A stretch of DNA of 26,511 nt, taken from a virus. The position numbers and the translations under genes are program-made. Below, piece by piece: positions 21,093 through 25,897 of this stretch. The stretch covers positions 1 through 26,511 of the IMG/VR virus record IMGVR_UViG_3300027763_000205; one strand, 5' to 3'. The notes beneath the pieces are model-generated. The model was not told where the DNA came from. It did not search any database and saw only the letters and a list, made by a program, of their open reading frames with translations. Numbering within the stretch: the stretch's first letter is position 1; each line of letters starts with the position of its first letter.

Positions 21093-21256
21093 CAAATTAC
21101 CATCCCGTATTGTTCACGAAGTATTTTTTTATAAGGTAAACCTTGTTCTCTAAGTTCTCTAACCAATTTGAGTTTATGGTAAAGAGCACCATCTCCACCA
21201 AATCCAAGTGCTTTTACAATTGTATTCAGTTCTTCATCATTTATAGGCAAATCCAT
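21092..21256 (-). CDS. Small conserved protein between genes 43 and uvsX, 54 aa
   Basis: A 54-residue protein starting MDLPINDEELNTIVKALGFG and continuing GDGALYHKLKLVRELREQG, then PYKKILREQYGMVI. It is helical and charged. It is too short for many gene finders but is framed by TAATG with gp43B and TGATG with uvsX, which strongly supports that it is translated. A small gene in this slot is usual in T4-like cyanophages. The function is unknown; a partner of polymerase or UvsX is a guess from position only. Confidence 0.8.
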   Translation of the reverse strand: MDLPINDEELNTIVKALGFGGDGALYHKLKLVRELREQGLPYKKILREQYGMVI

Positions 21257-22602
21257 TAGGTAAAAAATAGTTCAAGGTTTACAGTTTTTTCAACGTTCCA
21301 TCCAATAGAATCTAGAATGGATTTAAGTGGTTCAAGAAAACTCTTTTCAAATTGTAGTTCATAGTCTACGTATTTGTCAAGACCAAGTTCTGTTGGAAAA
21401 TCTTGAATAAAAGAAATGATATTTTCTTGAATAATATTTGGTTTTTTTAGATAGATGAACTTAATCTTCTCACCATTACCAATAAGTGAATATTTATTAG
21501 TCAGATTCTTATCCTTTATGTAATGATTAAAAAGAAGCGCACCACGAATATGAATAGGTGTGCCTTTGACATAAATGTCAGAATGAGATTGATATTTACG
21601 AACATCAGATGCTGTCCTTGGGAAAGCGATAGATTCAGGAGGAAGTGTCCTAAATTCACAGCGACATTTATCAATAAAATCAATCACCTGTTCTTCAGTT
21701 CCACTCATCATCAGTTTTAGACCATCCTTAATCATCTGACGGCAAGGAGCAGGAGTAGAAGATTTAACTGCTTCAATACCCATCATCTTCAGTTTAGGTT
21801 CATCATAACGAACACCTTCACTATCCCATACATTCAGAATATAACGTTTCTTGGCAGTCCAAATGCCACGATCAGCAATATTCTCCCGCTTCATCTGCAT
21901 CTTCTGGTCGTATGCATTCACATAGTCCGCCAATTCTTGGTAGCAACTTTCAATATACTTTTCAAGTTCCACCTGAGCGACCTTATCAAGGAACGACACA
22001 ACGCTCTCAGTAGTTTTTTCTCTTCCCTCGTATACAGTATCAACCAAAGGACCCATATTAAGATAGATGGAATCAGTATCAGAAGCAATAACATAATCTA
22101 CATCTTCAGTTTTTAGGATTTTGTTTAAGTACTTGTTAATTTTTTCTTCGATCCAACGAATTGAAACCTGCCCAGAAAGAGTGATTGCCTCAGCATTTGC
22201 TAGTTTAAAATAACGGAAGTACTGATTGCCAATAGCACCATAAGCACTATTAAGTTGAATCTTCCTTGCCATTTGGATGTTATTGCACCTTGCAATCTCT
22301 TTTTCCAGTGCCTTTGTCTTTTTCTTTTCATATTCTTGCTTTGCCACAATCATTTTCTTCTTATAGATGGTACGATCCTTATAAATCTTTTCCATCAGTT
22401 CGGGAAGAAATCCTTTTACTCTACGATAGAGTGCCCCATTTGCAGTCATAGTGAGATTTACTTTTTTTAGTGGTGTTAAATCTAACTCTTGGTTTAAAAG
22501 TTTGTCTACACTCACATTTGTAGTAAGTTCTCTTACCTGTTTAAGTGCCTCAAGTTCCTCTACAATTTCCTCACGGGACATTTTACGAACATCTTTCCAC
22601 AT
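21256..22602 (-). CDS. 43B: DNA polymerase gp43, C-terminal fragment (gp43B)
   Basis: The second half of a split family B DNA polymerase, 448 aa. It has palm/fingers motif B KIQLNSAYGA (114-123), motif C ASDTDSIY with the catalytic Asp pair at 175 and 177, thumb segments, and a C-terminal LELFFT that fits a sliding-clamp-binding tail. It lacks the exonuclease domain and motif A, which are on gp43A (23217-24494). The start ATG at 22602 has a GGAG seven bases upstream, inside the HNH gene; the GTG at 22644 gives residues that look unlike polymerase. All catalytic residues are intact, so the two fragments probably assemble into an active enzyme. It is not annotated as a pseudogene for this reason. 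Confidence 0.9.
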   Translation of the reverse strand: MWKDVRKMSREEIVEELEALKQVRELTTNVSVDKLLNQELDLTPLKKVNLTMTANGALYRRVKGFLPELMEKIYKDRTIYKKKMIVAKQEYEKKKTKALEKEIARCNNIQMARKIQLNSAYGAIGNQYFRYFKLANAEAITLSGQVSIRWIEEKINKYLNKILKTEDVDYVIASDTDSIYLNMGPLVDTVYEGREKTTESVVSFLDKVAQVELEKYIESCYQELADYVNAYDQKMQMKRENIADRGIWTAKKRYILNVWDSEGVRYDEPKLKMMGIEAVKSSTPAPCRQMIKDGLKLMMSGTEEQVIDFIDKCRCEFRTLPPESIAFPRTASDVRKYQSHSDIYVKGTPIHIRGALLFNHYIKDKNLTNKYSLIGNGEKIKFIYLKKPNIIQENIISFIQDFPTELGLDKYVDYELQFEKSFLEPLKSILDSIGWNVEKTVNLELFFT

Positions 22603-22611
22603 TCCAATTCT
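22576..22611 (-). repeat. Imperfect border repeat, 3' copy (HNH/gp43B junction)
   Basis: This 36-base stretch at the end of the HNH gene aligns with 23210-23238 at the end of gp43A, with 26 of 29 bases matching if one 5-base and two 1-base gaps are allowed. The shared blocks include GAATTGGA, ATGTT and TCC. It covers the last HNH codons and the gp43B start. Confidence 0.5.
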
Positions 22612-23170
22612 CCATAATTTTAGTATGTTTTTTGCGGTTTTCACTCATAGTAATAATCTGCAAGTTGTCTTCGTGATGCTTTCCTCCTTTTGAAATTGGA
22701 ATTATATGATCTACTTCGTGAGGAACATTAGTTTCTTCTGTTAATCGTTTTGCTTCACAATAAATCTCATTTATTTTTTGCTGATTTGCAGTTTCATCAA
22801 AAGCATCTCTTATTCTACATCTTCTACGAGCAGCAACAGAGTTCAAAACTGCCCTCTTATGTTCTTCACCCAAATATCTAAATTTAGTAGAGCAAGAATG
22901 AGAACAAAAACGAAGTTTCCATTTTTCACTTATTGCCCTAAATCTACTTACAATAAATGGAGAACTGCAATTTTCACAATAAAGAGTTTCCTTTCTCTCT
23001 TTATTTTTATTCTCCAAATGTTTAGGTTTTTGGAGTTCATACTTTCGTATTTTTTGTTTAATAAGAGGGTCAGAGCATCCAAAAAAATCAGCACACTCTT
23101 TACGACTTTTGTTTTCAAGAATATAAAGTTGATTCAGTTGTTCTTTAGTTATGTTGAATTTTGATTGCAT
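22583..23170 (-). CDS. HNH homing endonuclease inserted in gene 43
   Basis: A probable free-standing HNH homing endonuclease, 195 aa from the ATG at 23170 (201 aa from the GTG at 23188). The N-terminal helix-turn-helix-like region NKSRKECADFFGCS ... KQKIRKYEL may bind DNA. Two Cys pairs (YCENC, 65/68; FCSHSC, 89/93) form a zinc site. The HNH module reads EVDHIIPISKGGKHHEDNL (Asp154-His155, His and Asn169) followed by SENRKKH. It separates gp43A from gp43B and has a late promoter directly upstream (23196-23203), whereas the polymerase is expected early or middle. The two possible starts differ by 6 codons; with a late transcript starting near 23190 the ATG fits better. Confidence 0.9.
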   Translation of the reverse strand: MQSKFNITKEQLNQLYILENKSRKECADFFGCSDPLIKQKIRKYELQKPKHLENKNKERKETLYCENCSSPFIVSRFRAISEKWKLRFCSHSCSTKFRYLGEEHKRAVLNSVAARRRCRIRDAFDETANQQKINEIYCEAKRLTEETNVPHEVDHIIPISKGGKHHEDNLQIITMSENRKKHTKIMENWNVERCS

Positions 23171-23195
23171 TTGTTTTATTGTATCCACACATTAT

Positions 23196-23203
23196 TATTT
23201 ATA
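23196..23203 (-). promoter_or_regulatory. T4-type late promoter (exact TATAAATA) for the HNH gene
   Basis: An exact TATAAATA lies 13 bases after the gp43A stop and 25 bases before the HNH ATG at 23170. It places the nuclease under late control inside a replication operon. Late promoters ahead of homing endonucleases are known from T4. Confidence 0.68.
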
Positions 23204-23209
23204 AGATGA

Positions 23210-23238
23210 GGATATTCTACAACATTTTCTCCAATTCC
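23210..23238 (-). repeat. Imperfect border repeat, 5' copy (end of gp43A)
   Basis: The 29 bases spanning the last gp43A codons and its TAG stop resemble 22576-22611 at the other end of the HNH insertion. In the 5' copy the frame hits TAG; in the 3' copy a one-base difference shifts the frame and reads through as gp43B codons. This may mark the insertion boundaries or the target site. Confidence 0.5.
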
Positions 23239-24494
23239 GCAATACGATTATTAAGTTCGTGCTTTTCAACAAGTGTTTCTGGTGAGATTGAATACTGCAT
23301 AATAAGATGAGGATAAAGTGAATTCAAATCGAAATTTACAACATAATCATACACACCAGGAATTGGTTCTTTTACATAAGCACCAGCATACTTAGAATCC
23401 TTATCAGACCTCACATTTGGAGGAATCACAATATTCTTCTTTTTCAGATAGTTGTAGATAATCGTATCCCACATTCTAACTTGAGAAAACACATCAGAAT
23501 AATTAACTTTAGCGTCATATGCCATTGTCAAGGCAAGTTCAATGAGTTTCATCTTGTCTTCCATACGGTCAACAAGTTCCACGTCCTTGATGTTGTATTC
23601 TACAAACTTCTGCCAACCTTTGGTGTAGAAGTCTTTAAAGGTATCAAACTCACTGTGATCAAGTTTTTGTTGTCCCAATTCCACATTAGCGATATGATCG
23701 AGACGATAAGATTCCTGTGCCTTATAAGTGAACTTCTTATAAAGATTCAGGTAATCAAGTTGACTTACTCCACCAATATCATAAGAGATATGCTTACGTC
23801 CAGCAATAAATGTCTCACGTTCAGTAACTAGACCCCATGGAGACAAACGCTTCATTAATTTCTCACTGAGAACACGATCTATACGACGAACCAAATATGG
23901 AATATCATACAGTTCACTATTCCAACCAGTGATAACCTCTGGAGTATTCTCCTCAATCATCCACCAACTAATAAAATCATTCAACAAATCATATTCGTTT
24001 GAGAAAGAACGATATTTTACATTCTTTTGCTGATTATCAAACTTACCCAAGCCCCAAGTACGAATTTGTTTTGTATTATAGTCTTGGAGTGTGATGAGTA
24101 GAACTTCTTCAGCAGCACTTTCTACATCAGGGAATCCATTCTCGGATGCAACTTCAATATCGATTGTTGTAACTTTGATTTTACTAATATCAAACTTAAC
24201 TTCATCTTCTGGATAAGTTTCAGAAATATATTGATAGATGTAGCGTTCATTTCCACAAATTGCAAATCCCGTTACACCATCATACTTTTTAATAAAATCT
24301 CTACACTCTCGCACAGTTCCAGGTTGAACTGCTTCGACATATTCACCATTGAGCGTTTTATACTTACTATTATTTTTTGAAGGGACAAAAAGAGTCGGAT
24401 AAAACTTCTCACGAGTAATGAAATGTTTACCATTCTCATAACCACGAACTAAGAAATAATCTCCGACCATCTGGACGTTTGTGTAAAATCGCAT
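23217..24494 (-). CDS. 43A: DNA polymerase gp43, N-terminal fragment (gp43A)
   Basis: The first half of a split family B DNA polymerase, 425 aa. It has the N-terminal domain, the 3'-5' exonuclease motifs TTIDIEVASENG (Asp112, Glu114), ITGWNSELYDIPYL and YNIKDVELVDR (Tyr300, Asp304), then palm motif A FDLNSLYPHLIMQY (388-401) and SPETL. It ends ELEKML at TAG, before motif B. The remaining polymerase is encoded after the HNH gene. The ATG at 24494 shares a base with the stop of the upstream 85-aa gene (TAATG). No strong ribosome binding site is seen, so coupling may matter. The stop at this position, with all motifs intact on both sides, points to a working two-part enzyme. Confidence 0.92.
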   Translation of the reverse strand: MRFYTNVQMVGDYFLVRGYENGKHFITREKFYPTLFVPSKNNSKYKTLNGEYVEAVQPGTVRECRDFIKKYDGVTGFAICGNERYIYQYISETYPEDEVKFDISKIKVTTIDIEVASENGFPDVESAAEEVLLITLQDYNTKQIRTWGLGKFDNQQKNVKYRSFSNEYDLLNDFISWWMIEENTPEVITGWNSELYDIPYLVRRIDRVLSEKLMKRLSPWGLVTERETFIAGRKHISYDIGGVSQLDYLNLYKKFTYKAQESYRLDHIANVELGQQKLDHSEFDTFKDFYTKGWQKFVEYNIKDVELVDRMEDKMKLIELALTMAYDAKVNYSDVFSQVRMWDTIIYNYLKKKNIVIPPNVRSDKDSKYAGAYVKEPIPGVYDYVVNFDLNSLYPHLIMQYSISPETLVEKHELNNRIAELEKML

Positions 24495-24751
24495 TATGCA
24501 GTTAGTTCAAGATACTTTTGAATAATTTCAGGAGTTGGATCAGCAATGGTTAAAATATTCTCAGATCTCAACATTACTTCTTTTTGATTCGTAACCTCTG
24601 GCCAAGGTTTCATATTATCTTCAGAATAAAAACGATATGGATTAATCAACTTACAATTTGGATCTCCAAGTTCTGCCATTACTTCAACAATTTCCGCAAT
24701 GAGAACAGTATCAACATTAATCAATACACACTTAACAACTTTATCAGACAT
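24494..24751 (-). CDS. Conserved small cyanophage protein upstream of gene 43, 85 aa
   Basis: An 85-aa protein starting MSDKVVKCVLINVDTVLIAEIVEVMAE (described in parts: a beta pair with VLINVDTVLIAEI), then NCKLINPYRFYSEDN and a helical C-terminus. Its N-terminal layout resembles the adjacent 113-aa protein, so they may be diverged paralogues. The beta-strand pattern recalls Sm-like folds, but this is weak. It overlaps the upstream gene by 8 bases and gp43A by one (TAATG). Confidence 0.68.
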   Translation of the reverse strand: MSDKVVKCVLINVDTVLIAEIVEVMAELGDPNCKLINPYRFYSEDNMKPWPEVTNQKEVMLRSENILTIADPTPEIIQKYLELTA

Positions 24752-25085
24752 TGATTTCCACCTTTTCTTGAGTTTTATATGTTTTTAATTTATCAAAATA
24801 CATTTCCCTTACAGATGCTAGAGGTTCAACCAAGGTCACAACCCAATCCGAAGGAACTGCCATTTCATCATCACTGGTTAATACGATCCAAGGAGACAAA
24901 ACAACTTCAACTCCAGATTTTCCTTCTGGAGCATTCTCATCCTCTGTCAGTAATATTGGAGTTCTAATAGAAACCCTATGAGGTTCCTTGAACAAATATC
25001 CACAAACTTTATCATTTACTATAAGTTCTTTTATATCAGAAATCAGTGATTCGCCCGATTTCAACAGTGCAATTTTAATCGACAT
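24744..25085 (-). CDS. Conserved cyanophage protein, Sm-like candidate, 113 aa
   Basis: A 113-aa protein starting MSIKIALLKSGESLISDIKE (a beta hairpin with a central Gly), followed by GYLFKEPHRVSIRTPILL, VEVVLSPWIVLTSDD and WVVTLVEPL. The order of short strands with SGE at the first turn resembles LSm/Sm1 motifs in phage small proteins, though I cannot confirm a family. It is the first gene after the sigma70 promoter (25108-25137), with GGAT upstream of the ATG, so it heads the operon of gp43A and the genes beyond. Confidence 0.7.
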   Translation of the reverse strand: MSIKIALLKSGESLISDIKELIVNDKVCGYLFKEPHRVSIRTPILLTEDENAPEGKSGVEVVLSPWIVLTSDDEMAVPSDWVVTLVEPLASVREMYFDKLKTYKTQEKVEINV

Positions 25086-25107: not shown

Positions 25108-25137
25108 ATTATAGCACAAAAAAAGGGGGAGCGTCAA
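25108..25137 (-). promoter_or_regulatory. Sigma70-type early promoter (TTGACG-18-TATAAT)
   Basis: On the minus strand TTGACG (25132-25137) and a perfect TATAAT (25108-25113) are 18 bases apart, close to consensus. The -35 hexamer lies inside the terminator stem and the T-run fills the spacer. It should drive the 113-aa gene, the 85-aa gene, gp43A and onward with host RNA polymerase early in infection. Confidence 0.82.
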
Positions 25138-25161
25138 CTGGATTTTGCCAGTTGCCTCCCC
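25118..25161 (-). terminator. Long two-part terminator hairpin
   Basis: On the minus strand CAACTGG/CCAGTTG (7 bp) stacks on GGGGAG/CTCCCC (6 bp) across a small internal loop, followed by seven T. It ends the hsp20 unit. Its right half overlaps the promoter of the next operon. Confidence 0.88.
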
Positions 25162-25195
25162 TGCGGCGACAATAGTTGATTTGGGTAGCCCAAAC

Positions 25196-25203
25196 TATTT
25201 ATC
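25196..25203 (-). promoter_or_regulatory. Possible late promoter (GATAAATA) before the structured terminator
   Basis: NATAAATA match overlapping the stop of the 46-aa gene. A transcript from here would run only about 70 bases to the terminator and would contain a TTTGGG-CTA-CCCAAA hairpin plus the terminator stem. It may be chance, because stop codons followed by ATA easily give this motif. Confidence 0.35.
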
Positions 25204-25339
25204 GTTTTCTTTTGAAGGCACAAACCTTTTCTTTTGGTGCCATTTTATAATCGACAGTATGTCCATAGCAATTTTCTTTTGGTTTTACATATTTTTCAGT
25301 TGAACCAAAATCACCAACTTTTTCATTCAGAATCTGCAT
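25199..25339 (-). CDS. Small basic hypothetical protein, 46 aa
   Basis: A 46-aa reading frame starting MQILNEKVGDFGSTEKY and containing PKENCYGHTVDYKMAPKEKV, ending CAFKRKR. The ATG at 25339 overlaps the 3' end of hsp20 by 17 bases and has AGGAG three bases upstream, which is close. Composition (Lys 10 of 46, two Cys) and the tight overlap suggest a real coupled gene, but it is short. The function is unknown. Confidence 0.6.
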   Translation of the reverse strand: MQILNEKVGDFGSTEKYVKPKENCYGHTVDYKMAPKEKVCAFKRKR

Positions 25340-25790
25340 GAACTCCTGAAACGATCTCATATACTTTCTTCTTCTGATGTTCTGGAATAACTCTATTTAG
25401 TTTGACTATGAGTAATCCATCAACATAAGAAACATCTTTAACTTCCACATCATCAGAAAGAGTCCAGGTGCGAGTGAATGCCCTTTTTGCTAATCCCTGA
25501 TGTAGATATTCATCCTCAGAACTGCCAGATTTCTTTGCTTCTACAAAAAGTTTGTTCCATTCTGTAGTGACTTCAATATCTTCTCTTTTGTATCCAGCAA
25601 GAGCGATTTCCAATCTGAAATCAACATTACTTTCTTTGATTAGATTGTATGGTGGGTAGTTGGTATGCGATTCATACGCAGTATCAAACCTTTTAAACCA
25701 CTCATCCAATCCAATACTATTTCTTTGAATCTCCATCAGATACTTTGCAGTTTCTGGCACTGGGAGTGTAAGCGAACTTGTTCCGAACAT
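25323..25790 (-). CDS. hsp20: Small heat shock protein Hsp20
   Basis: An alpha-crystallin-domain chaperone of 155 aa, common in T4-like cyanophages; it probably keeps unfolded proteins soluble during infection. Residues about 40-147 form the domain (PPYNLIKESNVDFRLEIAL, GYKREDIEVTTEW, and LSDDVEVKDVSYVDGLLIVKL). GLLIVKL matches the conserved late strand (GxLxV). The ATG at 25790 is chosen because GAGG lies six bases upstream. It stands alone between two terminators, except for the overlapping 46-aa gene, so it should have its own promoter; TATACT near 25850 is only a weak candidate. Confidence 0.92.
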   Translation of the reverse strand: MFGTSSLTLPVPETAKYLMEIQRNSIGLDEWFKRFDTAYESHTNYPPYNLIKESNVDFRLEIALAGYKREDIEVTTEWNKLFVEAKKSGSSEDEYLHQGLAKRAFTRTWTLSDDVEVKDVSYVDGLLIVKLNRVIPEHQKKKVYEIVSGVHADSE

Positions 25791-25863
25791 AATAGACCTC
25801 CTTGAGCGTCTGTAAGTTAATAATGTCCCCGAAGGCAACATCATTAGTATATATCCAAAACAT

Positions 25864-25897
25864 AAAAAAAGCGAGGTGTTGTTCCCCGCTCTTTTTT
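25864..25897 (-). terminator. Terminator after regA (possibly bidirectional)
   Basis: On the minus strand AGCGGGG ... CCTCGCT (one G-U pair) is followed by seven T. The plus strand also has a T-run after the stem. It overlaps the regA stop region and separates gene 62/regA from hsp20. Confidence 0.82.

Follow-up and report, generated by a model that had tools for sequence, protein, structure and literature searches.

Results and discussion

Gene order and the nested promoter

The window analysed here, 26,511 bases long, is a virus fragment from IMG/VR, and its DNA relatives are cyanophages. Its minus strand carries regA, hsp20, a 53-codon ORF (25199-25360), two small genes, gene 43, uvsX and gene 41, in the order found in T4-like cyanophages. 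The order around hsp20 and gene 43 is the same in S-SM2, and S-SRM01 has a gene of equal length (53 codons) at the place corresponding to the short ORF. The first small gene (24744-25085, minus strand; T4-GC 176 type, phrog_431, DUF6561) encodes a protein with a predicted Sm-like fold, and the product of the second (24494-24751, minus strand; phrog_483, DUF6561) is related to it. The DNA polymerase gene 43 (21256-24494, minus strand) is split into an ORF for the N-terminal half (23217-24494) and a second ORF (21256-22644), with an HNH endonuclease ORF (22583-23188) sitting between the two.

A terminator hairpin, GGGGAGGCAACTGG-CAAAAT-CCAGTTGACGCTCCCC with apical GGCAAAATCC, is located at 25126-25161 on the minus strand between the 53-codon ORF and the first Sm-like gene; it is predicted by RNAfold and supported by compensatory changes in relatives. 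The hexamer TTGACG (25132-25137), a -35 box, lies in the right arm of the hairpin. The seven-base T-run of the terminator (25118-25124) falls within the 18-base promoter spacer, and the -10 hexamer TATAAT (25108-25113), with a TGn extension, comes next. This nesting had been proposed in a first-pass annotation of the DNA, and both the sequence and RNAfold bear it out, four of the six bases of TTGACG being paired in the fold with the A and the last G unpaired. The promoter also faces the gene 43 operon as annotated, that is, the two Sm-like genes followed by gene 43. The gene directly upstream is the 53-codon ORF, not hsp20 as had been stated. Competition of promoter and terminator for the same bases was a further proposal. 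The two elements do share bases; however, a terminator hairpin forms in the nascent RNA, and there is thus no structural competition for the bases of the DNA. If there is interference, its source would be RNA polymerase that crosses the promoter or halts in it. A contest between termination from hsp20 and initiation at the promoter is possible but unsupported.

The last 10 kb of the window contain 42 promoter-like sites. The nested site is one of three that score 11/12 and the only one of these with TGn, a sequence consistent with the sigma70-like early promoter of a PeSL (promoter-early stem-loop); the fusion of a stem-loop terminator to the promoter is likewise that of a PeSL. The 121-nt stretch around the site, which includes a second hairpin, has a folding z-score of -3.64, and one of 200 shuffles folds as well. 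A simple terminator scan of the window did not list the 25161-25126 hairpin that RNAfold finds; bulges in the stem probably explain this. PeSLs were reportedly described in T4-like phages by Arbiol in 2010 and Comeau in 2014. With them the site shares a terminator hairpin and a strong sigma70-like early promoter between operons, and the nested promoter/terminator is filed as a form of this known kind. In RB49 terminator and promoter are adjacent, whereas in the cyanophage unit the -35 is within the hairpin; the side-by-side layout of RB49 is perhaps no requirement of a PeSL. By itself, the nested element is a compact version of a known phage device.

Conservation of the nested arrangement

Sequences upstream of the best 80 of 123 relatives of the gene starting at 25085 formed 33 clusters. 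A T-run with a -10 directly behind it was found in 30 of these. The hairpin is real in 29; in the other (L051, a loop-type cluster) it is worth only -0.3 kcal/mol. The arrangement is absent from three of the 33 clusters (L028, L032 and L035). Within the 30 nested clusters the -35 sits in the right arm in 22 and in the loop in eight, matches at least five of six positions in 22 and is accompanied by TGn in 28. The -35 assigned in L019 is probably wrong.

The 22 right-arm clusters were aligned (alignment A1). In the outer stem 16 cells are changed on both sides compared with 6.0 in shuffles; none of 500 shuffles reached 16 and the count exceeds that of every slid version. The number of pairs changed on both sides gives a weaker signal, with 34 of 500 shuffles reaching it. 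In alignment A2 two of five covariation measures lie within the shuffles (450 and 413 of 500 reach them) and two slides match its both-side cell count; the outer helix of A2 is probably aligned in the wrong register. The pairing of the hairpin is maintained where the -35 is weakened to TGGAC or TAGAC. Nesting in 30 of 33 clusters together with compensatory changes in the outer stem indicates that the overlap is under selection, and the observation of a promoter nested in a terminator hairpin is real.

Sites of this type do arise in AT-rich DNA, and loose scans show no enrichment that would set them apart from an accidental overlap of two ordinary signals. In S-SM2 an ungapped-stem terminator scan, which missed the known site, gave no excess of -10 boxes behind terminators, and a permissive composite scan gave 21 sites against 7-21 in 15 shuffles; a terminator-first scan of RB49 and Syn9 that did not require a -35 gave a weak excess. 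The only definition that separated real from shuffled sequence was a stricter one, pairing strong terminators with promoters scoring at least 10/12. By this definition there are 27 nested pairs in eight cyanophage genomes (Syn9 2, S-RIM8 2, P-SSM7 4, S-SRM01 7, P-SSM2 4, S-SM2 3, S-PM2 2 and S-CAM1 3), while shuffled means were 0.0-0.7 in the four genomes that were shuffled (T4, KVP40, S-PM2 and S-CAM1). Some of the pairs, for example both in Syn9, look like chance. For the site in the window accident is refuted by the conservation, and the near-zero shuffled counts point the same way; we assign it a negligible probability.

RB49 has 20 pairs side by side (-10 located 17-60 nt after the start of the T-run) and one nested; T4 has nine and none, respectively. 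Expressed as distance bins, each of six cyanophages has 2-9 pairs at 0-19 nt against 0.2-0.7 in shuffles. In RB49 the 0-19 nt bin holds 1 against 0.2, and the 20-59 nt bins hold 20 against 1.5. KVP40 has four nested pairs, three of which are copies of one repeated sequence (AAAGGGTTGAC...CCCTTTcttgTATTAT, at 85883, 100218 and 121401). Nesting is therefore typical of cyanophages and not exclusive to them.

The leader and the late-promoter motif

In viruses of picocyanobacteria, both marine and freshwater, the stretch at 25108-25161 forms the 3′ half of a larger conserved unit, which the first-pass annotation missed. The unit reads, in order, late-promoter motif (TAAATA), conserved TATCGTCGNCGC leader, hairpin, U-run and nested promoter. 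In the window the leader is TATTGTCGCCGC (25163-25174, minus strand; alignments A1 and A2). The motif, GATAAATA, is located at 25203-25196 on the same strand, where it precedes the early -10 by about 90 bases and overlaps the 3′ end of the 53-codon ORF, and it agrees with the cyanophage late consensus NATAAATA. T4-type late promoters read TATAAATA and, under gp55, start transcription roughly one helical turn further downstream; PMC2984593 gives NATAAATA for S-PM2. The motif of the unit matches these, but a terminator and not a gene comes at once after it. From a predicted start near 25190 to the end of the U-run the unit would yield a short RNA of around 73 nt (25118-25190, minus strand), in line with the covariance model R1 described below. 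The stretch between motif and leader is longer in the window and includes GGCTACC, a variant that is present in several relatives. A second hairpin with a GGCUACC core is predicted here (25167-25204, minus strand), and the core recurs in several relatives having the longer spacing.

TAAATA behaves as a late signal would in S-SM2. It occurs within 80 nt upstream (at 25-44 nt) of 13 of the 18 late or structural genes checked. The main coding strand has 94 copies and the opposite strand 23; the expectation is about 69.

A blastn search with the 121-nt stretch (E up to 10) hit 390 phage records at 464 places, among them short, unrelated matches in phages of Enterococcus and Lactococcus. The good matches start upstream of the hairpin, at the leader TATCGTCGNCGC. 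The leader is present within one mismatch in 20 of the 22 right-arm clusters and in none of the eight loop-type clusters. ATCGTCGNCGC occurs once each in Syn9, S-RIM8, P-SSM7, S-SRM01, S-SM2, S-PM2 and S-CAM1, each time before a hairpin; its single occurrence in T4 has no hairpin.

Viral contigs were scanned for the leader plus apex pattern, giving at least 120 loci, of which 111 with full flanks formed 97 clusters. Conservation of the leader and of CTGGCAAAA in these clusters is no evidence, since the scan pattern fixes both. Among the matches listed, 93 of the 97 clusters have TAAATA no more than 45 nt upstream of the leader, compared with 2.65% of random stretches, and in 68 of those 93 the start-to-start distance is exactly 14 nt. 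The gene upstream of the unit differs widely among these listed clusters. Of the 90 clusters (matches listed) in which this could be tested, 67 have an upstream frame of 40 codons or more that ends at the TAA of the motif; the other 23 retain the motif although it closes no such frame.

A T-run follows in 96 of the 97 clusters and a nested -10 in 86, again among the matches listed. The T-run bears on a scheme in which the late promoter reads through an attenuating hairpin and provides middle or late expression of gene 43. In S-PM2, according to PMC2984593, the homologues of MotA-controlled genes do have both early and late promoters in front of them. Nearly all copies, however, place a strong hairpin and U-run between the late start and the operon, and we consider such tandem promoters very unlikely.

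The 11 listed clusters (of 97) that retain the unit with no nested -10 detected bear on an interference switch. Here polymerase that set out at the late motif or arrived from hsp20 would stop in the spacer, block the early promoter and so help the late shut-off of the replication operon. The position of the U-run in the spacer suits this idea, as does the late motif directly upstream, which would send late polymerase over the -35. The 11 clusters speak against it, as does the pairing kept where the -35 weakens, and we consider it improbable. With a late start directly across an early promoter, the layout would nevertheless allow a model of early-to-late interference to be put to the test. The arrangement is no one-off switch at hsp20: the unit follows many different upstream genes, it has its own late motif, and S-PM2 has a copy lacking the early promoter. 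For the same reasons late polymerase at the hairpin likely starts at that motif too, besides upstream of hsp20.

Rfam release 15 gave no match over the unit, either above the gathering threshold or at E up to 1, in the window and six other unit-carrying loci. The Rfam cyanophage RNAs wcaG, manA and PhotoRC-II are likewise structured but belong to other families and do not overlap the unit. We note that at L165, L166 and L170 (S-RIM8, P-SSM7 and Syn9) the unit is near psbA with PhotoRC-II within a few kb in all three, wcaG being within a few kb in L165 and L170 and manA in L166. A search for leader targets as 9-nt complements in 11 phage genomes established none; counts were 5-20 against 4-6 expected and include the opposite strand of the unit itself. 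One coding stretch recurrent in three phages was considered as a target and rejected, protein conservation being the best explanation.

Copy number and genomic placement

Model R1 of the unit was built from 45 of 86 eligible clusters; in the window it matches 25187-25120 with 58.6 bits. It finds exactly one copy in seven of eight cyanophage genomes and no match in P-SSM2, T4, RB49 or KVP40. The only other matches listed were two weak ones (15-17 bits) in S-SRM01 and S-PM2. Of 22 contigs of up to 211 kb, 21 also carry exactly one copy and the remaining one (G009) gives no match. As these contigs were known through the unit region, presence in them partly reflects selection; their copy number of one does not.

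In S-RIM8, P-SSM7, Syn9 and S-PM2 the unit is near hli or photosystem genes, away from gene 43. The S-PM2 copy has no early promoter yet retains the leader, and the Syn9 copy has lost the -35. The early promoter and the leader-bearing RNA are thus separable, which is the chief reason for thinking that the RNA-like part has a role of its own. S-PM2 has another hairpin-like stretch, read by eye, at its hsp20/Sm-like junction; a T-run and TATACT follow it. The R1 match in L051 and in L077 is more than 1 kb from the Sm-like gene.

These data also bear on the simpler view that the unit is a plain PeSL cassette, ending one operon, starting the next and serving as a recombination point, with a late motif and leader that have no RNA function. 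PeSLs stand in multiple copies in hypervariable regions. Nested pairs of unrelated sequence do occur, up to seven per cyanophage genome, the genes downstream of the unit in S-RIM8, P-SSM7 and Syn9 are unrelated, and PeSLs have been described for T4-like phages (PMC4503421). The leader-bearing unit is by contrast single copy, the loop-type nested pairs have no leader, and S-PM2 keeps the leader with no promoter to serve. The late motif and leader are additions to the PeSL plan. We regard a plain cassette as unlikely, although it is the strongest of the alternatives that deny the RNA a role.

An origin of the unit in the host was considered and rejected: a leader-plus-apex search of 84,980 genomes gave 24 matches, none titled Synechococcus or Prochlorococcus. 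R1 scored one of these at 75.9 bits and one at 21.2 bits, with the rest near noise. The 75.9-bit copy (L408, 757-833) is in a record titled as a Thermoplasmata archaeon MAG chromosome, likely a virus or a mis-assembly.

The Sm-like neighbour

The protein encoded at 25085-24744 matches PDB 3by7 by sequence profile with E 3.9e-9; the title of that entry notes a structural similarity to Sm/LSm RNA-binding proteins. Its AF2 model (pLDDT 81) superposes on 3by7 with Z 13.8 and an rmsd of 0.8 over 82 aligned residues; Foldseek was also used. The modelled protein thus has an Sm fold; proteins of the Sm/LSm class bind RNA as rings. An Sm-like gene lies no more than 800 nt downstream of the unit in 87 of the 97 clusters (matches listed), compared with nine of 291 control windows; of the ten listed clusters lacking one, one had only 86 nt available. 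The many contexts first suggested a freely mobile cassette, an idea rejected on this frequency; it is mostly the upstream gene that varies.

Sm-like genes are present in all eight cyanophages, including P-SSM2, which has no R1 match, and were not found in T4, RB49 or KVP40. The databases searched give no function for the cyanophage proteins (DUF6561; PHROG entry 'unknown function'). The short predicted RNA, its U-run and the adjoining Sm-fold gene resemble the small RNAs, of phage or host, that work with Sm/Hfq proteins. The cyanophage unit differs in belonging to no Rfam family, and both the RNA and its binding are predictions.

Proposed role of the unit

Taking together the anatomy, the conservation, the pairing changes, the copy number, the position of the late motif and the Sm-like neighbour, all observed in silico, we favour a late RNA of about 55-75 nt whose terminator insulates the Sm-like/gene 43 operon and carries its early promoter. 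We put the probability of this reading at roughly 0.6. Early in infection, host sigma70 polymerase would use the nested promoter, starting some 15 nt upstream of the AUG of the Sm-like gene, and would transcribe this gene, the second Sm-like gene and gene 43. The hairpin would block transcription arriving from the upstream gene and so insulate the next operon. Late in infection, gp55 polymerase would start at TAAATA and the short RNA, an unpaired leader UAUCGUCGNCGC followed by the terminator hairpin and U-run, would end in the U-run. Such an RNA might work by itself or together with the Sm-like protein, or it might matter only through the passage of polymerase across the early promoter. The sequence argues strongly for the early promoter and for the insulating hairpin; the later steps we infer. 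The whole unit is a candidate small-RNA gene from which each promoter would fire, the RNA made may act on its own and the Sm-like protein may bind it.

A more specific proposal is that the unit is a single-copy gene for a late small RNA acting in trans through its UAUCGUCG leader with the phage Sm-like protein, and that the terminator was co-opted as an early promoter for the chaperone/replication operon. This is tentative, and we judge it as having perhaps more against it than for it.

The favoured reading of a late RNA predicts the start, the end and the length of a short late transcript in the cultured phages S-PM2, Syn9, S-SM2 and S-RIM8. If true, it would explain the conserved Sm-like proteins of cyanophages. 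The more specific proposal would mean that these phages bring their own small-RNA-plus-chaperone system into hosts many of which have no Hfq. PMC2518516 reports Hfq as absent from 10 of 12 Prochlorococcus strains sequenced by 2008; a phage-borne pair of small RNA and Sm-like protein would be a new takeover tool there. No description of the unit appeared in the literature listings and passages covered; the PeSL work or the Syn9 transcriptome may hold an earlier mention. The latter is reportedly the subject of a 2016 paper by Doron.

The region around hsp20

Upstream of hsp20 the window has a terminator 3′ of regA followed by a conserved TATACT/TATAAT-like box with no clear -35 (25864-25896, minus strand). 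The hsp20 leader (25794-25845, minus strand), over which Rfam gave no match in the window, was examined in an alignment of 45 distinct leaders. It contains a conserved hairpin (25845-25819) with a UUCG loop, replaced by GAAA in two relatives. A second short hairpin, AGACGCUCAAGGAGGUCU at 25811-25794, contains the Shine-Dalgarno sequence and sits just 5′ of the likely AUG at 25790, an arrangement that appears similar to that of an RNA thermometer.
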